Source: Symploca sp. SIO2E6 (GTDB taxonomy: Bacteria > Cyanobacteriota > Cyanobacteriia > Cyanobacteriales > Coleofasciculaceae). From it: a stretch of 35,311 nt of DNA. The stretch covers positions 11,089-46,399 of the forward strand of contig JAAHGR010000017.1 in the NCBI GenBank assembly GCA_010672425.1, written 5' to 3'. The notes under the pieces were generated by a model, which did not search any database, had not been told where the DNA came from, and was given only the letters and a program-made list of their open reading frames with translations. Within the stretch, counting starts at the first letter, position 1; every line of letters starts with the position of its first letter. Positions 1,018-25,936 of this stretch are shown here, piece by piece. The translations under genes and the position numbers were made by a program.

Positions 1018-1133
1018 ATGATTCGAAGTCTTGTTAAGGCTCAAATCCTGAACTGACGAGGAGTGTGGGAGGTATGGGTTGAATCAAGAATCCCCCGTCA
1101 AGCTAACGCTGTGACGAGGGAGTGTCAATTATA

Positions 1134-1283
1134 CAAACAACAAACAACAAACAACCAACGACAAACAACAAACAACAAACAACAAACAACCAATAACCAA
1201 CGACAAACAACAAACAACAAACAACAAACAACCAATAACCAACGACAAACAACAAACAACAAACAACAAACAACCAACGACTA
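1134..1283. repeat. Low-complexity array of CAAACAA-type units
   Basis: CAAACAA units are organised into longer blocks punctuated by CCAACGA or CCAATAACC. The array ends eight bases from the stop codon of the small secreted-protein gene on the opposite strand. A shorter array of the same kind occurs at 34362-34394. Confidence 0.8.
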
Positions 1284-6591: not shown

Positions 6592-8220
6592 ATGAATCTG
6601 CTGTCCTTTCTTGTGCGCTACTCCTGGAAAACGGTAGCAGTAGCGATCGCTACTGGTTTTGTGAGTGGTGGTAGTAGTGCTGGACTGATTGCTCTGATTA
6701 GTCGTGTCTTTAGCCAAAGCGATTCTTCTTCGCCGACATTACTCGCCTGGGGTTTTGTGGGATTGACTGTGGTAGCACTAATGACCAGTATTATTACCAG
6801 AGTAATCCTGATTCACCTCTCTCAAGACGCAATTTTCCATCTACAGATGCGTCTGAGCCGTCAAATTCTAGCGTCGGAGTTGAGTCATCTAGAACAGTTG
6901 GGCTCCCCTCGCCTATTGGCAACCCTAACAGAAGATGTGCAAACAATTGCTAATGCTGTGTTTGTTGTACCCTTCCTCTGTATTAATGTAGCAATTGTAA
7001 TTGGGTGTCTGGTTTACATCAGTTGGCTCTCTGGGAAAGTATTGCTGATGGTTTTGGGCTTATCAGCGATCGCGATGGGTAGTTGTAGGGCACTGTTGAA
7101 AAAAGCAAGTCAGTTACTTGCCCTTGGTAGAGAAGAGCAAGACTTACTATTCAAGCATTTTCGTACCATAACCGAAGGTGTCAAGGAACTCAAACTACAT
7201 TATCACCGGCGCCAAGATTTCCTCACCGAAGAACTACAGACAACAGCTGCCAAGTTCCGTCGTCATAATGTTTACGGTCTAACCCTGTTCGCCGCCACTG
7301 ATAGTTGGGGCAAGTTCATCTTTTTTTTTGCAGTCGGCTTCGTGATGTTTGTTCTCCCCCATTGGGTTGTCATCGACTCTCAAACCCTTTCTGGTTATGT
7401 CTTGACTTTTACCTATCTGATTGGGCCAATGGAAAATATTATCAACAAACTGCCAATCCTGAGTCGAGCTAATGTTGCTTTAAATAAGATTGAGACTCTT
7501 GGCTTATCCCTAGCCAGTCGAGCCGAGGTAGCAACATTTCCACCTGAGATATTGTCTGAATGGCACTTTTTGGAACTCAAGGGGGTAACTAATACTTACT
7601 ATAGTGAGCAAGAAGATGTTAACTTTACCCTTGGTCCGATTGATCTGAGGCTGCAACCAGGAGAAATAGTATTTATCATTGGTGGTAATGGCAGCGGTAA
7701 ATCTACCCTAGCTAAGTTGATTACCGGACTCTACATTCCAGAATCGGGAGAAATTTGGTTAGACAAGCAGCCCATTAACCAAGAGAATCGAGAGTGGTAT
7801 CGCCAACATTTTTCCGTGGTTTTCTCTGACTTCTATTTGTTTGAACGGCTCCTAGGGTTGCAGCAAATTAATTTAGATACTCAAGCTCAAGAGTATCTTC
7901 AGCAACTTCAGCTTGAGCATAAAGTCAAGGTCAAAGAGGGAGAACTTTCCACTACTGCTCTGTCTCAAGGACAGCGTAAACGACTAGCTCTACTTACAGC
8001 TTACCTGGAAGACCGACCAATTTATCTATTTGATGAATGGGCAGCGGATCAAGACCCCATATTTAAGGACATCTTTTATACAGAGTTTCTACCCAAGCTC
8101 AGAGAGCAGGGCAAAATGATACTGGTAATCAGTCATGATGACCATTACTTTCATTGCGCAGACCGAATTGTCAAGTTGGACTATGGTCAAGTTGAGTATA
8201 ACAGGGAAATTAAGAATTGA
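6592..8220 (+). CDS. Cyclic-peptide-export-type ABC transporter, permease-ATPase fusion (542 aa)
   Basis: This is a half-transporter with an N-terminal membrane domain (residues ~1-310, about six helices) and a C-terminal nucleotide-binding domain. Walker A is GGNGSGKST, the signature is [12 protein letters not shown], and Walker B is [12 protein letters not shown], followed by the H-loop ISHDD. The DEWAADQDP and ISHDDHYF wording is characteristic of the cyclic peptide transporter family (SyrD/PvdE-like), which exports peptides or siderophores across the inner membrane. All ATPase motifs are intact. No peptide synthetase or precursor gene is nearby, so the substrate is unknown. The final codons (REIKN, stop) merge into the downstream heptamer array. 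Confidence 0.85.
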
Positions 8221-8358
8221 GAATTGGGAATTGGGAATTGGGAATTGGGTATTGGGAATTGGGAATTGGGTATTGGGTATTGGGTATTGGGTATTGGGAA
8301 TTGGGAATTGGGTATTGGGTATTGGGTATTGGGTATTGGGTATTGGGTATTGGGAATT
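8214..8358. repeat. TTGGGAA/TTGGGTA heptamer array (about 20 copies)
   Basis: A 7-bp tandem array with two interspersed unit variants begins inside the last codons of the ABC exporter gene. Because 7 is not a multiple of 3 it is open in several frames on both strands, which creates spurious open frames of ~90-110 codons. It is followed at 8362-8405 by an octamer array (CCTTGTAT and variants). Confidence 0.85.
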
Positions 8359-12395: not shown

Positions 12396-12430
12396 CTCAT
12401 TACTCATTACTCATTACTCATTACTCATTT
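12396..12430. repeat. CTCATTA heptamer array (about 4.5 copies)
   Basis: The final CTCATTT unit contains, on the minus strand, the TGA stop codon of the response-regulator gene. A GGCAGGA array (12356-12376) lies just before it. The two genes converge here. Confidence 0.8.
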
Positions 12431-14272
12431 TTGATGAATCTTAGACAACTTTTCCAACACTACCCGATCACCTCCTTCTTCTTTAGCTTTAGATAGTGCA
12501 TGATTAGCTGCTTCTAGAAGTATTTTGGGAGAAGACTCTAGAGGCGGTACTATACTAGCCACACCTAAACTCAGAGTGATATACCGATTTACTGGAGAAC
12601 TGAAATTGGCTAACTTCAGTTGCTTGACAATTCCCCGCATCTTTTGAGCAATCCAAACTCCTCCAGGAGCATTGGTATTAGGCAAAATCACCCCAAACTC
12701 CTGTTCACCGTAGCGAGCCACTAAATCTGTTGGGTGCTCGACTGCTTGGCGGATAGCGTTGGCAACTTGTTGCAAACAGTCATCTCTAGCTTGATTACCA
12801 TAAGTGTCGTTAAATTCTTGGAAAAAGTCAATATCAGCCACAATTAAAGTTAGAGGAGATTGCTCTTGTGCCAATCTTTGCCATTCGCAGTCTAGATAGT
12901 CTTCAAACCAACTGCGACTAGCCAGCTGGGTTAAACCATCGGCACAGGTAAGATATTCTAATTGTTGATCGGCTTTTGCTAATTTTTGAACAAGTTCCGC
13001 TTTCTCAAGAGCAACACCAACTTGGTTAGCTAGTTGTTGAAGGAATTCAATCTGCCACTGTGACCATTGTCGAGGCGCACTACAATGATGGCAAATTAGT
13101 AACCCCCACAAATGCTCCCCTGTTAGCAGGGGAACTACTACTTTAGATCTAATACTGAAGAACTCTAGGAACCTAAGCTGTCCTTGATCAAGATCTGCTT
13201 TGTAGGTATCCTCAATTACTCTAACTTGTCCCTGCTGGTACTGAGCAAGGTAATTGGGTTCAGCAATCCAAGGATCGCGTCCCTCCCATCCCAGCAAGCA
13301 AAGCAAATCAGCGTCTACTGACTCAGCTACCACTGAGCCACTACCATCTACACCGAAGCGATAAATGACTACCTGATCATTCCCCAGTAACTGGCGCACT
13401 TGAGTTACTGTTATGTTCAGAATTTCCTCTAAGTTTAAAGATTGGCGAAGGCGTTGGGAAAAGTCTGCGACTAACTTCTCTTGCTTGCCCCATTGTTGCT
13501 CGTTTTCCTGTGCCTGTTGCTGCTCACTCATATCCTGAAAAACGATCATGCTGCCAATAGCCTCACCCTTATTATTTTTGATTGGGGTGGCTGTACTATT
13601 AATTGGTATTTCTTGACCATTTTTGGTTTTTAACAGGTAATTGCTTGACAAATTTACCTGGATACCCTGTTGCATGGCCTGCATCAGAGGGTTCTTGATT
13701 TGTGTGTGGGTTTGTGCCTGAATAAAAGTCAGCACTTGATTGGCATTTTTACCTAAAACCTCTGGTAGAGACCAATCAGTGAGAGACTCAGCAGCACGAT
13801 TCATTGACAAAATGCAACCCCGATCATCTGTAACAATGGTCGGCTCCCCGATACTGATGAGAGTGTTAACTATTTGTTGTTTGATCTCCTGCGAGCGTTT
13901 TTCTAGCTGATGTCGGCGCAGAGCAATTTCAATGGTTGTCTGTAACTCTCGCTCCTGAAAAGGTTTGACAAGATAACCATAGGGGTTGGTGCTAATGGCT
14001 CTCTGCCAGGTATATTCATCAGTATGAGCTGTGAGATAGATAATTGGGATATCAAAGCGATCGCGGATTTGTCCAGCGGCGGTGATACCATCCATCTCAT
14101 CTTCGAGTCGAATATCCATTAAGACCAGATCTGGTTTGATGGCAGCAGGAATTTGGATGGCTTCTGCTCCAGAGGTCACATTAGCTACCACCTTATAACC
14201 TAACTGTTCTAAGGTTTCTTGAATATCCCAGGCAACAACGCTCTCATCTTCTACAATTAATATTTTGATCAT
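12425..14272 (-). CDS. Response regulator REC-PAS-GAF-GGDEF with degenerate GGDEF (615 aa)
   Basis: The receiver domain (residues 1-120) has Asp53 as phosphoacceptor, Thr81 and Lys103. A PAS domain (~135-250), a phytochrome-like GAF (~275-430) and a GGDEF domain (~450-610) follow. The GGDEF metal site is present (DIDFFQEFND, 480-489), but the signature is GEQEF (522-526) instead of GGDEF/GGEEF, so diguanylate cyclase activity is doubtful. The GAF lacks cysteines at the bilin-attachment positions. The start at 14272 is chosen because the 50 upstream codons (to 14422) are only translated GGAGAAT repeats and the receiver begins at once with MIKILIVEDE. It follows a sensor kinase gene on the same strand and is its likely partner. 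Confidence 0.88.
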   Translation of the reverse strand: MIKILIVEDESVVAWDIQETLEQLGYKVVANVTSGAEAIQIPAAIKPDLVLMDIRLEDEMDGITAAGQIRDRFDIPIIYLTAHTDEYTWQRAISTNPYGYLVKPFQERELQTTIEIALRRHQLEKRSQEIKQQIVNTLISIGEPTIVTDDRGCILSMNRAAESLTDWSLPEVLGKNANQVLTFIQAQTHTQIKNPLMQAMQQGIQVNLSSNYLLKTKNGQEIPINSTATPIKNNKGEAIGSMIVFQDMSEQQQAQENEQQWGKQEKLVADFSQRLRQSLNLEEILNITVTQVRQLLGNDQVVIYRFGVDGSGSVVAESVDADLLCLLGWEGRDPWIAEPNYLAQYQQGQVRVIEDTYKADLDQGQLRFLEFFSIRSKVVVPLLTGEHLWGLLICHHCSAPRQWSQWQIEFLQQLANQVGVALEKAELVQKLAKADQQLEYLTCADGLTQLASRSWFEDYLDCEWQRLAQEQSPLTLIVADIDFFQEFNDTYGNQARDDCLQQVANAIRQAVEHPTDLVARYGEQEFGVILPNTNAPGGVWIAQKMRGIVKQLKLANFSSPVNRYITLSLGVASIVPPLESSPKILLEAANHALSKAKEEGGDRVVLEKLSKIHQK

Positions 14273-14288
14273 GATTTTATGAAAAAAT

Positions 14289-14395
14289 AAGGAATAGGGA
14301 ATGGAGAATAGAGAATGGAGAATAGAGAATGGAGAATGGAGAATGGAGAATGGAGAATGGGGAATAGGGAATGGGGAATAGGGAATGGGGAATGT
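14289..14395. repeat. GGAGAAT/GGGGAAT heptamer array
   Basis: About 15 imperfect 7-bp units lie between the sensor kinase gene and the response-regulator start codon. They occupy the place where the regulator's ribosome-binding site would be and extend its open frame artificially. Confidence 0.8.
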
Positions 14396-14444
14396 CGAAT
14401 TATTATATGACAAAGATGACATTCTTAGGTCTACAGACTTCTAT

Positions 14445-16436
14445 CTAGCCTGAGGCAATAAAAGTAATCTTGAAAATTGTGCCCTCATCTTTCTCAAGTT
14501 CAATTTTACCTTTTAGCTGCTTCACCAAGGTCAGAACTAGCTTAAACCCCATCGATTGGACTGTGTATAGGTCAAAATCTCTAGGGAGTGGCTCACCGTT
14601 ATTACCAACTGTTAAGATTAGTTGATTGTTCGTACTGGCTTCCAGCTTGACAAACACTTCACCTGTTCGCCGCTGGCGAAAACCATGTTTCAGAGCATTG
14701 GTAACTAGTTCATTAATAATCAATCCGCAGGGGACAGCTTGAGCAAGGTTAATAAAGATTTTATGCTCGACAATAACCTTAAAAGCAATAGTACCAGACT
14801 TGATATTGTAAATCTTGAATAAGTTACTTGTCAGATTGCGCACATATTCGGTAAAATTGATGCGGCTTAAGTCTCCAGAATGATACAAATTCTCGTGTAC
14901 CAGTGCCATTGATTCTACTCGGTTGCGGCACTCTTGCAGAGCAGTTTTGGCTTGAGAGTCCTGGACACGATTGGCTTGCAACCGTAGCAGGCTGGCAATA
15001 ATTTGTAAGTTGTTTTTCACCCGATGGTGGATTTCTTTTAGTAAGACTTCTTTTTCCTTGAGGGAAGTCCGAATTTTTTCCTCTGAGAGTTTGCGTTCCG
15101 TTACATCTTCAGCAATTCCGGCAAGGCGGTATACTTCACCTAGTTCATTATAAATAGGAAAGGTGCGCTCGTAGATCCAGCGAATTCCCCCATCCGGTCG
15201 CACAATACGATATTCTTTAGTGGTTGACTCTCCCTGCCGCTGTCGGTCAAAATCAGCGATCGCGATTAACCGATCTTCTGGATGTAAAGTCTTTATCCAT
15301 TTATAAAGAGCAGCTGACAACTTCCTGCAAGAGTATCCCATAATTCTCTCATAGGCAGGACTTACATAGAGCAACCGTTCACTATCTAGGGAAAATAACC
15401 AGAAAATATCTTCTATATTGTCTGCCAATTGGCGGAACCGCTCCTCACTTTCCCGTAATGCTGTTGCTGCCTGTAGACGTTCCGTGACATCTCGCAAAGC
15501 AACTACATAGACTGATGTTCCTTGCCAACTAGTTTCCTTTACCCTCATCTCCCCGATAACTAGTCCTCTGTCCGGGTGATTAATTCCCAACTCCGCCGTT
15601 TCTGACACCACTATTGGCTCGCCAAAATCGTGCTCCAGCAAATCTTCTGGCTCCTTGCCAAACAGCTTAGCTACTGCTGGGTTAGCAAAACATACCTTAC
15701 CTTGGAGATCCACTAGTAGGATACCATCGGAGATACTGTTAACAATCGTATGTAGCCGTGCTTCACTTTCCCACAAAGCGCTCTGAATGAACTTGTGTTC
15801 AGTAATATCCTGAGCGGTGCCAATAATTTGCTCTGGCATACTGTCAGGAGTTCTAGTAAATACCACATTCCGGCTACGAAACCAACGCCAAGAAGCATCA
15901 CTGTGCTGAAGTCGGAATTCCTGCTCAATTACTTCCCCATCACTGACTTGAGCAAAGCGCTGAGGCAGTGATTGAAACAGAGGTAAATCATCTGGGTGCA
16001 ATCTCTCCAGAAAAAATTCTGTTCCTAGTTGCTCAGGTGAGGAGGAAGCAAAGCCTAACATCTGAAAAATTTGACGATTCATGTAGATGTTGTACTCAGC
16101 AATCAAGTCGTAGATATACAACAGCTGGGGCATTGTATCAGCAATGCGCTGCACCATCAGCTGGTTACGACTTAGTGCCTCTTTAACTAAGGCAACCTCC
16201 ATCTGTTGATGCTCTTTCACCTCAGTTTGCAGTTGAGCGTGGGAGTATTCTAATTCTGATGCTAGCTGCTTCTGATTTCTCTCCATCCCTTGCAAGCTAG
16301 TATAGAGTTCCTCAAAGACTTGTCTTAGCCATTGGGATTGCTCTGGAGTTTGAGGTAATTCCTTGACCCCTTGTTGTAGTACACTTAAGCGATAGCGCAG
16401 ATCATCTGTCGTTTGAGCAAACTTGTTTTTATTCAT
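14445..16436 (-). CDS. PAS-domain sensor histidine kinase, HisKA_2 type (663 aa)
   Basis: This is a soluble kinase with no membrane segments. An N-terminal coiled coil (~30-90) is followed by three PAS domains (~92-215, 222-322, 330-448). The HisKA_2 dimerisation domain has its phosphoacceptor His470 in LLKEIHHRVKNNLQ, and an HATPase domain follows (~560-663). The N-box is GLIINELVTNALKHG. The G1 box reads NNGEPLP, with Asn in place of the usual Asp of D-N-G, so ATP binding may be altered, although variants of this box occur in HisKA_2 kinases. The gene lies 172 bp upstream of the REC-PAS-GAF-GGDEF gene on the same strand, and the two probably form a two-component system. The signal is unknown. 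Confidence 0.88.
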   Translation of the reverse strand: MNKNKFAQTTDDLRYRLSVLQQGVKELPQTPEQSQWLRQVFEELYTSLQGMERNQKQLASELEYSHAQLQTEVKEHQQMEVALVKEALSRNQLMVQRIADTMPQLLYIYDLIAEYNIYMNRQIFQMLGFASSSPEQLGTEFFLERLHPDDLPLFQSLPQRFAQVSDGEVIEQEFRLQHSDASWRWFRSRNVVFTRTPDSMPEQIIGTAQDITEHKFIQSALWESEARLHTIVNSISDGILLVDLQGKVCFANPAVAKLFGKEPEDLLEHDFGEPIVVSETAELGINHPDRGLVIGEMRVKETSWQGTSVYVVALRDVTERLQAATALRESEERFRQLADNIEDIFWLFSLDSERLLYVSPAYERIMGYSCRKLSAALYKWIKTLHPEDRLIAIADFDRQRQGESTTKEYRIVRPDGGIRWIYERTFPIYNELGEVYRLAGIAEDVTERKLSEEKIRTSLKEKEVLLKEIHHRVKNNLQIIASLLRLQANRVQDSQAKTALQECRNRVESMALVHENLYHSGDLSRINFTEYVRNLTSNLFKIYNIKSGTIAFKVIVEHKIFINLAQAVPCGLIINELVTNALKHGFRQRRTGEVFVKLEASTNNQLILTVGNNGEPLPRDFDLYTVQSMGFKLVLTLVKQLKGKIELEKDEGTIFKITFIASG

Positions 16437-20547: not shown

Positions 20548-20606
20548 GGAATAGGGAATTGAGAATTGGGAATTGGGAATTGAGAATTGAGAATTGGGAA
20601 CAGTGA
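20518..20606. repeat. GGGAGCA/GGGAATA/TTGAGAA heptamer array overlapping the fabD 3' end
   Basis: The 7-bp units change sequence gradually along the array. The first four or so units are translated as the end of FabD, and the rest lies in the fabD-plsC spacer. Confidence 0.75.
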
Positions 20607-20612
20607 GTTGAC

Positions 20613-20745
20613 CTCATTACTCATTACTCATTACTCATTACTCATTACTCATTACTCATTACTCATTACTCATTACTCATTACTCATTACTCATTACTCA
20701 TTACTCATTACTCATTACTCATTACTCATTACTCATTACTCATTT
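20613..20745. repeat. CTCATTA heptamer array, 18 perfect copies plus one variant
   Basis: This is the longest and most uniform array in the window: units start every 7 bp from 20613, and the 19th (20739-20745) ends in T instead of A. Read in the plsC frame it would encode a seven-residue repeat (LLITHYS), which explains the apparent long N-terminus of PlsC. It ends nine bases before the likely GTG start of plsC. Confidence 0.9.
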
Positions 20746-20754
20746 AGTCATTTT

Positions 20755-21393
20755 GTGAGCAGAAATCGCGAACCACTTTCCAATCTTATCCTCTACCACA
20801 CCTTCAAATGGTCGGTAGTCAGTCCAGTATTTCACACTTATCTTCGGGGTCGTATCTATGGTGCTGAGCAAGTTCCTCAGGAGGGACCACTAGTGGTGGT
20901 AAGTAACCATGCTAATGCTTTAGACCCCCCGCTTCTTTCCAATTGTGTGGGACGTCCCGTGGCCTTCATGGCTAAAGAGGAATTATTCCATGTGCCATTA
21001 CTAAAGCAAGCAATTAAGTTATACGGAGCTTATCCGGTAAAACGCGGGTCTGCTGACCGTAGTGCCATTCGCTCTGCTCTCGAATATCTCTCAGGTGACT
21101 GGGCTGTTGGTCTATTTGTATCAGGAACTCGGACAACTGATGGCCGCATTCCTGATCCAAAATTAGGTGCTGCTTTGATTGCAGCTAAAGCTAAAGCGCC
21201 ACTCTTACCTGTCAGTTTGTGGGGCACTCAGGCAATTTTCCAGAAAGGTTCTTCTCTACCGCGCTCTGTACCGGTAACAGTCAGGATTGGTCAGTTAATC
21301 GAGGCTCCTACCTCAACTAAACGGGAAGAATTGGAAGCATCAATACAACATTGTACGGCAGAAATTCATCGCCTACACGACTTAGGGCGCTAA
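20755..21393 (+). CDS. plsC: 1-acyl-sn-glycerol-3-phosphate acyltransferase family protein (212 aa)
   Basis: This is a membrane-associated acyltransferase that converts lysophosphatidic acid to phosphatidic acid. The catalytic H-x4-D motif is NHANALD. The acyl-acceptor motif, usually E-G-T-R, reads SGTR here, so the acidic residue is missing; this may be a lineage trait or change specificity. The P-V-K-R block (AYPVKRGSADRSA) and the late L-P-V-S-L-W motif are present. The GTG start at 20755 (MSRNREPLSNLIL) is chosen because upstream codons to 20587 are only the CTCATTA array. No Shine-Dalgarno sequence is visible. It follows fabD with a 207-bp repeat-filled gap. Confidence 0.85.
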   Translation: MSRNREPLSNLILYHTFKWSVVSPVFHTYLRGRIYGAEQVPQEGPLVVVSNHANALDPPLLSNCVGRPVAFMAKEELFHVPLLKQAIKLYGAYPVKRGSADRSAIRSALEYLSGDWAVGLFVSGTRTTDGRIPDPKLGAALIAAKAKAPLLPVSLWGTQAIFQKGSSLPRSVPVTVRIGQLIEAPTSTKREELEASIQHCTAEIHRLHDLGR

Positions 21394-21400
21394 ATAGCTC

Positions 21401-21460
21401 GTCATTTGTCATTTGTCATTGGTCATTGGTCATTGGTCATTGGTCATTGGTCATTGGTCA
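21401..21460. repeat. GTCATTG/GTCATTT heptamer array (about 8 copies)
   Basis: The array lies between the convergent plsC and LOV-kinase genes. On the minus strand it encodes the last residues (TNDQ) and the stop codon of the kinase. Confidence 0.85.
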
Positions 21461-23885
21461 GAGTTTGAGCCGTATCTATGTTAGGAATTTCCACCACAAA
21501 CTCAGTACCTTTTCCTAGTTCTGACAAACACTGTATACTTCCCCCATGTTTTTCAACAACAATTTGATAGCTGATAGCTAATCCTAAACCAGTACCTTTT
21601 CCTACAGGTTTAGTGGTGAAGAAGTGGTCAAAAATTCGTTGCCGGAGTTCTTCTGGAATACCAGGACCGTTATCGGCAATTCTGATGACAACGCTATTAC
21701 TGATTTGGGGTAAATCACGCCTGAAACCGTCTGTTGAACTACTGTTAAATAGCTCGGTGGAGATGGTAATAGTGCTGCGATCGCGACTATAACTTTTCTC
21801 CAAATCATATTCTTCTAAAGCATCAATAGCATTATTTAGAATATTCATAAAAACTTGATTAAGCTGTCCTGCATAACATTCTACTAGGGGCAAGTTACCA
21901 TAGTTTTTAATAAGCTTAATGTTTGCCGCTGCAGGCTTAAAGCGATGTTGTAAAATCATGAGGGTATTCTCAATACCCTCATGAATATCTACAGCTTTAC
22001 GCTCTGCTTCTTCCAACCGTGAGAAATTTTTTAAACTTTGCACAATCTGGCGAATACGTTCTGCGCCCATATCCATTGACTTCAAGAGTCTAGGGAAATC
22101 TTCTACCAAAAAATCGAAATCAATATCCTTAGTGAAATCATCAATTTCCTTGACGGGTAGGGGATAGTACTGATTATAAAGTTGTACCAATTTCAACAAA
22201 TCATCAGCATAGTACTCCGCATGAGAGATATTACCGTGGATAAAGGTCACTGGGTTATTAATTTCATGGGCAACACCAGCAACCAATTGTCCCAAGCTCG
22301 ACATTTTTTCCGTCTGAATCAGCTGTAATTGAGTTTGTTTAAGTTGGTAGAGAGTTGCTTCTAGCTTGGTTCTTTGCTCAATTAGAGTTGCTTCCGACTC
22401 TCGCAGGGCAGCTTCAGCAGCAGAGCGCTCTTTAAGTTCACCTGCTAGCTGCTCGAATAATGCTGCTTGCTGAATAGCTACACTTAACTGTATGCTTAAC
22501 TGTCTGAGCAATTCTACTGAAGATTTTTGCCATTTCCTTGGTTGATGACAGTGATGAGCAATCAACAGCCCCCAAAGCTGATCTTGTTGTAGAATGGGAA
22601 CCATCAGGTTGGCTCTTACCTGAAACTGCTCAAGCATTTTTACATAACACTTTTGCAAATCCGCATTATATATATCTTCAACGACTCGAATCCCACCTTG
22701 TCGGAAATAAGGAGCTTTGGTTTTGTGAAAACAGTTATCCTGAATCTGCTCTTCCAGAATGGACTTACACTCTTCACTCACTGATTCGACTACCATTGTT
22801 CCGGTAAGATCTGGGTTAAAGCGGTAGATGATTGCTCGATCGCAAGCAAGAAATTGTCGCACTTCTTCTACCGCCGTGTTAAGCACTTCTTCCAGGTTCA
22901 ACGTCTGGCGAATACGCTGATTCATTTCCCCCAGCAATTGTTCCCTCTCAGCTTGTCTCCTAAGTCTGGCTTCAGTCTGTTTGCGCTGGGTGATATCACG
23001 GAAAGAGCAGATTCTGCCGTAGCAGTCACCATTAGGTGATAATACGGGAGTTGAGTAACAATCAAATACTCTGCCGTCATTGAGATTGACTTCATTGCGG
23101 CTGGCAGTAGTGGGGTTCTCTTGGAGGTGCTTGACTTGAAACAAAACCTCTTCCGGCTCAGCGAGCAACAGGAGGATACAGTTGATGATTTTTTCCTGAT
23201 TACCAAAACGCATCAACTCCTCGGGTATGTGCCACATTTCACAAAACTGGCGATTGTAGCTAGTAATTGCTCCTTGTTCATCAATTACTAGTACACCATC
23301 AAGATCAGCTTCTTGTCGTGCTCTCAGCAAAGCCTTACTACGTTCAAGAGCCTGTTGAGCTTGCTTAGGTTTAGTGATATCTGTCTGAATGCTGATAAAG
23401 TGGGTTAAACAACCATTGGCGTCTCTGATCGGCGAAATTTTTAGCTCATTCCAGAAAGGCTTGCCATCCTTGCGATAATTTTTTAGTACAACTTGGCATT
23501 CTTTCCCTTCTTTGAGAGACTGGCGGATTTGCTTAAGTGCCTGTGGATCAGTATCTGATCCTTGTAAAAACCGGCAGTTCTTACCAATTATCTCCTCTTG
23601 GGAATAACCGGTAATTTTCTCAAAAGCAGGATTGCAATAGATTACCGGAATATCGGGTTGGCGAGCATCACTGATGACAATGCCACAGCTAGTGGCTGCT
23701 AGGGCACGTTTATATAACCAGAATACCCCCATATCCACTTGTCCCACTATGTTCTCTTTAGCTGTTTCTAACTCACCATAAATGGCTGGCTTGCTTGCCT
23801 TTAAATTCATAGCACTAAATAAACTAAGGGATATTGACTTAGCTAGTTGTTCTGCACCCTGATATCTTGGTTTCTGTAAAAGCAT
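21444..23885 (-). CDS. LOV-PAS-GAF sensor histidine kinase, putative dual photoreceptor (813 aa)
   Basis: Residues ~62-172 are a LOV domain: GKNCRFLQG with photoadduct Cys104, plus [26 protein letters not shown] and the final Gln of SIQTDIT, so every flavin-contacting position I can check is kept. A second PAS (~190-300) and a GAF (~326-476) follow. The GAF has Cys385 in a D-N-C-F motif and Cys413 in [16 protein letters not shown], 28 residues apart, as in DXCF cyanobacteriochromes, although Tyr rather than His follows Cys413. The kinase core has His540 (GVAHEINNP), N-box [22 protein letters not shown] and GKGTGLGLA, all intact. There are no membrane segments. The LOV assignment is firm; bilin binding is inference. 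No response regulator is adjacent. The last four residues come from repeat DNA. Confidence 0.92.
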
Positions 23886-24379
23886 TAAAGTCTCTTGGAT
23901 ATGACGCTAGCTAGCCACTGGTTTTTGAGCTCTCCTGGTGAACATTGATATTTTTGATCTAAATGACACTATAGTTATCAGGTTTTTGAGCCCTACTGCA
24001 TAGCTGATACTCGACTTTTACGCAAGTCCCTAGCTACGTAATTTACTCATAAGCTTATTGTATTGCATTTTACTAAACTAGTATAGATTTTTGTAAAGTT
24101 ATATTGAGTCTTATGGTAATTATGAAAACTATAAGTAAAACTTAATCAAGATCTACCATGGAAGTTTTATATTCTGATTTGTAAGTAGGGAGTAGGGGGT
24201 AGGGAGTAGGGAGCAATGAAATTATTTATTGGGACTATCTGGTAAACAATTCCCAATTCCCAATTCCCAATTCCCAATTCCCAATTCCCAATTCCCAATT
24301 CCCAATTCCCAATTCCCAATTCCCAATTCCCAGTTCCCGATTTTCAAGCTAGTTATCGAGAAATTCTAGATTTTCCTCA
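23886..24379. other. Divergent intergenic region
   Basis: The AT-rich region should contain the promoters of the LOV kinase (leftward) and of the 24380 gene (rightward). TATAGA near 24080 is a possible -10 box for the latter, but no confident -35 was seen. A GGGAGTA array (24185-24212) and an AATTCCC array (24248-24338) fill the right part. No gene is seen. Confidence 0.5.
24248..24338. repeat. AATTCCC heptamer array, 12 perfect copies plus one variant
   Basis: Units start every 7 bp from 24248, and the last (24332) reads AGTTCCC. The array ends 41 bp before the next start codon and therefore probably lies in that gene's leader. Confidence 0.9.
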
Positions 24380-25936
24380 ATGTCAGCCCCAACCGCAACC
24401 AAGAAAAAATCACTCCAACCCATTGATCGTGTGGCTTTGGGAGTAATGATTGTGCTGAGTCTTTTGATTAGCATATTGTTATTGAGCGGCAATCATACTA
24501 AGCCCCGGGTTAGGGATTTCAGTTGGCAGGAAAGACAAATAGGGGCTGAAGATACTGGCTTTGTCCTGACTTTTAGCCGCCCCATGAACCATGCTAGCGT
24601 TAAAGACCATCTCAAGGTCAATCAACTGCTCCCTGGAGTAAAGCCACCCCAGCCAGAAGGTGAGCCTATTGAGGGAAAAATTAGCTGGGCTGGGCGTCGG
24701 ATGGCTTTTACCTTCAACTCCCCCTTACCCTATGGCAGCGCATATCAAGTGCAATTAGAAGGGGCAAAAGACGATTTACCTAATCTTAGGGATGAAGAGC
24801 GGGGAACCGAGATGGAACCATTCAACGCTGTCTTCCGCACTCGCGATCGCATTTTTGCCTATATTGGTGTAGAAGCTGAAGAGGAAGGACGATTAATTCT
24901 CTACAACCTGACTCAACAGCAAAAAACACCCCTGACACCCCAAGATTTGTTAGTTAAGGATTTTAAGATTTACCCAGATGGGGAGCAAATCTTGTTTTCT
25001 GCTACTGATCCTTTGAGTCAGAGTCGAGGGTTACTCGCAGAGCAACTTTATACTGTGACCACAGGAATATCTTTTCAAACCTCAAACAAAAAGTCCAAGT
25101 TGCCAGAACCCCCAGGTAAAATTAATCGGGTTTTGGATAATCAAGCCTACCAAAATATGCAATTTGACTTGTCTAATGACGGTGAGACGATTGTTGTTCA
25201 GCGAGTGAACCGAGACAATCCTGCTGACTTTGGTTTGTGGACTATAGAGCCTGATGCCAAACCACAACCACTGGAAAATGAGCCAGGAGGTAATTTTTTG
25301 ATTACCCCTGATGGTAACTCCATTGCTGTTGCTCAGGGGACAGGGGGAATAGCAATTTTACCCTTGACACCAGCAGCTGAACCTCTAGATTTTCTACCTA
25401 AATTTGGAGTAGTTCTGAGTTTTGCTCGGGACGGTTCAGCCGCAACCATGGTCAAGTTTAACGCTGACTACACGCGATCGCTATTTTTGGTAACTAACCA
25501 AGGAGATGAGACAGAATTGCTGCGCACTACTGGTTCCATAAATAGCTGCGAATTTAATCCTAACAAAGAAATTCTCTACTGCTTGCTGACCCAATTGATT
25601 GAAGGAGAAGAATACGTAGAAGAACCATTCATCGCTGCTATTGCCCTAGAAGCTGCCAAGAATCAAGAGAAGTTGCCAGTCAAACCTTTGGTGGTTTTAC
25701 CTGAGCAACGGGATATTAAAGTAAGTTTATCCTCAGACGGCTTAGCCTTACTCTTTGATCAGATAGTCAGCACCGCACCCTCAGCCAATAGCACCTTAAG
25801 ATCAGATGAAGGACAAGCCATCACCGACGCAGTGCTGTGGCTATTACCTGTAGTTGATTCCACCTCCTCCCAAACCCCAGTTCAGCTACAACCAGAGAAG
25901 TTGCTACCAGGCTTCAAGCCTCGCTGGTTACCCTAG
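24380..25936 (+). CDS. Membrane-anchored Ig-like / beta-propeller-like protein (518 aa)
   Basis: A basic N-terminus is followed by one membrane helix (residues ~18-36, VALGVMIVLSLLISILLL), giving a type II anchor with the bulk outside the cytoplasm. Residues ~45-155 resemble a bacterial Ig-like (Big_5/SbsA-type) domain (FVLTFSRPMNHASVKDHLKV, SPLPYGSAYQVQLEG). The rest (~160-510) has recurring strands with S-x-D-G or D-x-G-x-x-I-x-V patterns (LSNDGETIVVQRV, ITPDGNSIAVAQG, LSSDGLALLFDQ), suggesting a TolB/WD40-like propeller. It is probably a periplasmic or lumen-facing protein conserved in cyanobacteria. The function is unknown, perhaps protein interaction at the envelope. Confidence 0.65.
   Translation: MSAPTATKKKSLQPIDRVALGVMIVLSLLISILLLSGNHTKPRVRDFSWQERQIGAEDTGFVLTFSRPMNHASVKDHLKVNQLLPGVKPPQPEGEPIEGKISWAGRRMAFTFNSPLPYGSAYQVQLEGAKDDLPNLRDEERGTEMEPFNAVFRTRDRIFAYIGVEAEEEGRLILYNLTQQQKTPLTPQDLLVKDFKIYPDGEQILFSATDPLSQSRGLLAEQLYTVTTGISFQTSNKKSKLPEPPGKINRVLDNQAYQNMQFDLSNDGETIVVQRVNRDNPADFGLWTIEPDAKPQPLENEPGGNFLITPDGNSIAVAQGTGGIAILPLTPAAEPLDFLPKFGVVLSFARDGSAATMVKFNADYTRSLFLVTNQGDETELLRTTGSINSCEFNPNKEILYCLLTQLIEGEEYVEEPFIAAIALEAAKNQEKLPVKPLVVLPEQRDIKVSLSSDGLALLFDQIVSTAPSANSTLRSDEGQAITDAVLWLLPVVDSTSSQTPVQLQPEKLLPGFKPRWLP

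Follow-up and report, generated by a model that had tools for sequence, protein, structure and literature searches.

The window analysed here, a stretch of 35,311 nucleotides from Symploca sp. SIO2E6, carries on its reverse strand an open reading frame (ORF) for a protein of 813 residues, in which a LOV domain (Cys104), a PAS domain, a GAF domain (Cys385 in a DNCF motif, and Cys413) and a histidine kinase follow each other (Table 1). Pfam assigned PAS_9 to residues 67-172, PAS_7 to 196-305, GAF to 330-471, HisKA from residue 531 and HATPase_c to 674-801; both HisKA and HATPase_c scored above the Pfam cut-off and His540 lies in an AHEINNP motif, as expected for a sensor histidine kinase. Pfam gave no match to a PHY domain in the kinase, as in cyanobacteriochromes (CBCRs), where a bilin-binding GAF domain stands without PHY. 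The maximum Kyte-Doolittle value over 19-residue windows was 1.52, so there is no obvious membrane segment, in agreement with the soluble protein proposed in an earlier note on this DNA.

Table 1. Features of the LOV-PAS-GAF-histidine kinase gene and its surroundings (window positions; residue numbers refer to the 813-residue ORF)
Feature	Position	Strand	Basis or remark
LOV-PAS-GAF-histidine kinase gene	21444..23885	-	813 aa; ORF list, Pfam
Met26, probable true start	23808..23810	-	L061/L062 orthologues start at the matching Met
LOV domain, residues 58-183	23337..23714	-	Pfam, PDB matches, structure model
Cys104, predicted flavin-adduct cysteine	23574..23576	-	In GKNCRFLQG
Second PAS domain, residues 190-305	22971..23318	-	PAS_7-like, without LOV cysteine
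CBCR-type GAF domain, residues 326-479	22449..22910	-	PDB matches, trees, model
Cys385, second cysteine	22731..22733	-	DXCF motif (DNCF)
Cys413, canonical bilin cysteine	22647..22649	-	By alignment
Tyr414	22644..22646	-	Follows the bilin Cys, where His is usual
His540, predicted phospho-accepting histidine	22266..22268	-	AHEINNP
HATPase_c catalytic domain, residues 674-801	21483..21866	-	Pfam
7-bp tandem repeat (GTCATTG)	21401..21460		Gives last codons and stop of the kinase gene
Divergent neighbour	24380..25936	+	Big_5 domain

The two Symploca orthologues (L061 and L062) are 86.7-88.2% identical to the window kinase, and their N-termini suggest that Met26, at window position 23810, is its real start, in which case Cys104 would be renumbered Cys79. 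Both also end before the last dozen residues of the window protein, which run into the 7-bp array that supplies the stop codon. Values of omega against these orthologues were 0.08 for the LOV domain and 0.06-0.07 for the GAF domain, indicating strong purifying selection. Many 7-bp tandem arrays, mostly intergenic, are present in the window (1133-1278, 8214-8358, 20613-20744, 21401-21460, 24247-24342 and others), and some enter gene ends, as at the 3' end of the kinase gene and in the apparent LLITHYS repeats that start the acyltransferase ORF at 20587-21393. The same divergent arrangement of Big_5-domain gene and LOV-CBCR gene is seen in L061, L062, L064, L065 and L233.

The earlier note had read GKNCRFLQG, with Cys104, as the core of an intact LOV domain, and this was borne out. 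Searches against PDB LOV domains gave E-values down to 1e-43, with phototropin LOV1 among the matches, and the GKNCRFLQ motif and residues N103, R105, Q108, R121, N136, N146 and Q167, which we take to be the flavin contacts and which are all present, align with phototropin LOV1. The LOV cysteine was retained in all eight rows of alignment A2. In an AlphaFold2 model of the LOV-PAS-GAF region (residues 54-478, mean pLDDT 85.5), the LOV domain matched Meiothermus LOV 9vf7 with Z 21.4 (rmsd 1.9 over 140) and Chloroflexus CagFbFP with rmsd 0.6 over 105, while a Foldseek search with the whole model returned the Brucella LOV-PAS kinase in the top rows.

The leading PDB matches of the GAF domain were all CBCRs, namely PPHK (5e-55), miRFP670nano, which derives from NpR3784 (3e-39), RcaE, an XRG GAF (6bhn) and TePixJ (2e-33), the protein names for entries 6OAP, 7CKV, 3W2Z and 5DFX being those given in the available text of PMC11480761, and that of TePixJ being taken from PMC6955287. 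Residues 260-423 of the model matched the CBCR structure 6xhh with Z 21.3. Cys413 aligns with the bilin-binding cysteine of PPHK, miRFP670nano and TePixJ, and Cys385 precedes it by 28 residues, exactly the distance between C494 and C522 of TePixJ (PMC6955287); the cysteine pair and the TePixJ-like spacing that had been noted earlier (DNCF, then KCYVKML...FQVRANL) were thus confirmed. In a tree of 79 GAF domains, the query grouped with the GAF domains of Symploca and Coleofasciculus LOV-CBCR proteins (support 98/94) and then with other kinase-linked DXCF GAFs, while TePixJ and the red/green GAFs were placed elsewhere and PPHK and NpR3784 formed a separate branch. The earlier note had named a position outside the CBCR clade, together with a lack of covalent bilin, as one ground for abandoning its reading, and when outgroups were included in a tree of 52 rows, the 44 CBCR rows, with the query among them, split from three phytochrome GAFs at 99/95, with weaker support (84/60) for the separation of CBCRs and phytochromes from other GAFs. 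On these alignments and trees the query GAF is placed inside the CBCR radiation, in a kinase-linked DXCF lineage. TePixJ is therefore not the closest model: the spacing is shared, but PPHK is the best solved match, and TePixJ and the query sit on different branches of the 79-GAF tree. Since DXCF GAFs occur in several CBCR lineages according to the available text of PMC11284453, where the subfamily is defined by a reversible adduct at C10 and isomerisation of PCB to PVB, a GAF off the TePixJ branch can still be of the DXCF type.

The tyrosine that follows the canonical cysteine had been considered odd, and this view was not sustained. The GAFs compared, 141 distinct ones, were chosen for their similarity to the query and do not amount to a census; 83 were dual-Cys, having both the DXCF and the canonical cysteine, and of these 63 had Cys-His, 19 Cys-Tyr and one Cys-Leu. 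In the genome of the window itself, where 39 of 103 matching GAFs were inspected, Cys-Tyr occurred in 5 of the 18 that are dual-Cys. In miRFP670nano, an engineered CBCR, H87Y adjoins the bilin-binding Cys86, and the crystal structure has the tyrosine stacked on covalently bound biliverdin (PMC6336887). Tyr414 is, as far as these comparisons go, an ordinary and recurrent natural variant compatible with covalent bilin attachment, and not an abnormality. The changes from His to Tyr at 414 and from Gln526 of TePixJ (by alignment) to Met417 do alter residues near the bilin.

A DXCF motif alone is not proof of a bilin site, as 10 of the 141 GAFs have the DXCF cysteine and lack the canonical one. In one kinase-linked GAF clade (L045, L049, L050, L054, L058 and L060) the DXCF cysteine is kept and the canonical bilin cysteine absent. 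Throughout the close LOV-CBCR clade the DXCF cysteine is retained, with the exception of L071, a near relative in which the motif reads DNFF and the canonical cysteine is kept. The window also contains, at 12425-14422, a REC-PAS-GAF-GGDEF regulator next to a PAS kinase (14445-16436). As its GAF (L016) has no such cysteines, the earlier note had concluded that the pair is not just a feature of the GAF type. The absence was confirmed (DPWI and QGQ at the two sites), but in the tree this domain is placed close to RcaE, within the CBCR radiation, and so seems to be a degenerate member of the group and not a GAF of unrelated type.

The genome encodes three ferredoxin-bilin reductases and two heme oxygenases, which makes it very likely that PCB is available. 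Elsewhere (G000 C580), two bilin-reductase genes (L142 and L143) are adjacent, and a GAF-domain gene (L030) lies nearby. No response regulator gene adjoins the window kinase gene, nor was one seen in the flanks read of its close orthologues, and the GGDEF regulator at 12425 was rejected as cognate partner because it adjoins the different kinase at 14445.

When named genomes were scanned with the LOV alignment, 80 relatives out of 351 were kept, and in 10 of these 80 a dual-Cys GAF was present in the same ORF as the LOV domain (two Symploca, two Coleofasciculus, UBA8803, UBA11370, Trichocoleus, Kastovskya, Pseudanabaena and Hydrococcus). Within the family of the window organism, the combination was found in 10 of 20 genomes, a count that leaves out two weaker matches (G396 and G397), and one further genome has the canonical cysteine only. 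Sixteen further long candidate regions added no ORF with both a LOV cysteine and a dual-Cys GAF, five loci with wide coverage (L164-L168) lack the LOV cysteine, no record in the plasmid collection covered 80% of the query, and PADLOC gave no match. LOV plus dual-Cys-CBCR proteins are, by these sequence counts, a recurrent class across cyanobacteria, and the recurrence of relatives of the same build implies that one molecule probably compares light colours.

A second lineage was found in the family that includes Pseudanabaena 'Roaring Creek' (38 genomes), of which 29 encode a PAS-LOV-PAS-GAF-kinase at E<1e-220, mostly of 920-976 aa with two shorter ORFs. The LOV cysteine is present in 29/29 of these proteins, the DXCF cysteine in 26/29, the canonical cysteine in 26/29 and both GAF cysteines in 25/29, so that LOV and a dual-Cys GAF are combined in 25 of the 38 genomes. 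In the remaining four (L174, L197, L201 and L211) one or both bilin cysteines are lost and the LOV cysteine is kept, and these could serve as natural controls for the role of the bilin. The GAFs of this family form branches apart from the window-type GAFs, so in the GAF tree the LOV-CBCR pairing is not one inherited block: it needs seven label changes, two of them forced by starred branches, which supports two separate GAF lineages. The LOV tree holds both clades and leaves the deep branching without resolution. In 26 of 28 loci checked (L174-L201), a response-regulator-like ORF starts 8-245 bases after the kinase, the same pattern not finding one in L188 and L190, and Pfam assigned REC-GGDEF-EAL to all four following regulators submitted (L218-L221). 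This adjacency makes c-di-GMP the likely output in this lineage, and suggests that its LOV-CBCR kinases exert light control over c-di-GMP.

Chance occurrence of the cysteines in the window kinase is ruled out by the trees, the conservation and the omega values, together with the PDB matches of the LOV (E = 1e-43) and GAF (E = 5e-55) domains. The distances between the functional residues are also conserved. In all eight loci with the window architecture, 226 residues separate the LOV cysteine from one and the same position of the GAF domain that follows. Compared with this distance, the five loci with extra PAS differ by 119, 112 and twice 126 residues, each divisible by seven, and by 240 (L067), which is not; the two loci without the PAS (L040 and L056) differ by -128, likewise not a multiple. 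The distance from the bilin cysteine to the kinase histidine is 127 residues in 14 of 15 loci of this set (146 in L056). In the Pseudanabaena-containing family 25 of 28 loci have 115 residues here, one has 122 and two have 108, which are steps of seven, and the LOV-to-GAF distance is 225 in 25/28. On these descriptive counts, the spacing of LOV cysteine, bilin cysteine and kinase histidine appears constant or mostly shifted by sevens, as would be needed for signal transfer along a stiff helix, in which multiples of seven are expected. Coiled-coil linkers are considered a likely route for the integration of serial sensors in the available text of a review (PMC6798134).

We propose, with a probability of about 0.7, that the window gene encodes a soluble two-chromophore histidine kinase which combines blue light, sensed through a flavin adduct, with a colour ratio sensed through a bilin. 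The LOV and GAF domains are identified by sequence, and chromophores, colours and signalling logic are taken here from their families. The LOV domain would bind FMN and form an adduct with Cys104 in blue light, which would decay in the dark. At Cys413 the GAF would carry covalently bound PCB or its product PVB, and a reversible bond between Cys385 and C10 would produce a 15Z state that absorbs blue light and a 15E state absorbing at longer wavelengths. Blue light may thus drive both sensors and green-to-orange light reset the bilin alone, so that kinase output would follow the blue dose plus the colour history. A helix of constant length would carry the signal to His540 of a presumed dimer, from which the phosphoryl group would pass to a response regulator. 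The interpretation of the earlier note is therefore supported in part: at sequence level it held throughout (LOV domain, GAF tree, bilin synthesis genes, kinase motifs and conserved pairing), its side points on TePixJ, Tyr414 and the neighbouring GAF are revised, and the bound bilin, the colours and their integration are still proposals.

The main doubt concerns the addition of Cys385 to C10, since PPHK, the closest solved GAF, has a tyrosine at this position; it lacks the DXCF cysteine and absorbs green light with PCB, and a dual-Cys photocycle is hence not guaranteed. PCB could be held by Cys413 alone, with Cys385 unreactive and the GAF switching between green and red or between red and orange, as do PPHK and NpR3784, while the LOV domain senses blue light. 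PPHK (D-x-Y-F, with a PCB state at 562 nm) and NpR3784/miRFP670nano do without a second cysteine, Tyr414 and Met417 differ from TePixJ, and L071 lives with DNFF; we nevertheless consider this unlikely, as the query GAF groups with DXCF GAFs and not with PPHK, and the DXCF cysteine is otherwise kept in the close LOV-CBCR clade and in 26/29 of the Pseudanabaena-family proteins. Still less probable is a GAF that carries no bilin and serves as a structural relay in a kinase sensing blue light through LOV only. The His-to-Tyr change at 414 could be read in this way, and bilin cysteines do get lost, both in Cys-less GAFs inside the CBCR radiation (L016 and others) and, singly or together, in 4/29 of the Pseudanabaena-family LOV-CBCRs; the window GAF, however, retains both cysteines under an omega of 0.06-0.07, and Cys-Tyr, often seen where a GAF is otherwise complete, binds biliverdin covalently in miRFP670nano. 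That the LOV domain is a redox or scaffold PAS and the bilin the sole light sensor is very improbable, for although there are PAS domains whose bound flavin does not work through an adduct and CcaS has a possible flavin in its PAS (PMC10513317), here the adduct cysteine and flavin contacts are complete and the LOV cysteine is present in 29/29 Pseudanabaena-family proteins and in 8/8 rows of A2.

LOV kinases, DXCF CBCRs and two-sensor kinases such as PPHK and Ppr are each already known. PPHK from Leptolyngbya sp. JSC-1 (6OAP/6OAQ/6OB8) resembles the window kinase in having a PCB-binding CBCR GAF, the closest solved one, in a dual-input histidine kinase (PMC11480761); it differs in that its second input is, from its name and PDB titles, phosphorylation and not light, and in the tyrosine that replaces the DXCF cysteine. 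TePixJ shares both cysteines and their spacing (PMC6955287), but lies on a different branch, has His after the bilin cysteine and is a chemoreceptor, with no LOV domain in the solved construct. CcaS of the Highlighter system is a CBCR kinase whose PAS may bind flavin and so account for a blue response; that PAS is termed no more than LOV-like, the CBCR is of the green/red type, and the flavin role is proposed and not proven in the available text of PMC10513317. Bacterial LOV histidine kinases such as Brucella LOV-PAS-HK (6PH4), which gave the top Foldseek matches, have the same LOV-PAS order and kinase output but no CBCR GAF. Two photosensor chemistries are likewise united in one protein in plant neochromes and in Ppr, the PYP-phytochrome-HK protein of Rhodospirillum centenum (PMC5812497, PMC9614035). 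These use PYP or full phytochrome modules, whereas the window kinase has LOV and a stand-alone CBCR GAF. In the available text of PMC9614035, a review from 2022, the natural receptors given for several light stimuli are neochromes, Ppr and CBCR arrays, and two-chromophore receptors of differing chemistry are rare in the reviews cited, as far as their available text goes, with Ppr as the bacterial example. No LOV-CBCR hybrid protein was found in the available text of the open-licence literature searched, subscription papers lying outside that search.

A broader reading, which we hold with less than even confidence, is that cyanobacteria have, in the LOV-CBCR kinases, a widespread counterpart of neochromes; at least two lineages would have independently fused LOV and a dual-Cys GAF on a phase-locked helix as a gate for blue dose and colour ratio, one of them wired to REC-GGDEF-EAL and c-di-GMP. 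A conserved natural LOV-CBCR kinase lets the summing of two light signals by one helix be tested directly and represents a ready-made two-colour optogenetic kinase. The REC-GGDEF-EAL neighbour in the Pseudanabaena-containing family offers a concrete output to assay. In Hydrococcus rivularis (L139:2264-5197) the order is GAF-GAF-LOV on a methyl-accepting chemotaxis protein, with both GAFs of the dual-Cys type, which may represent a two-chromophore phototaxis receptor.
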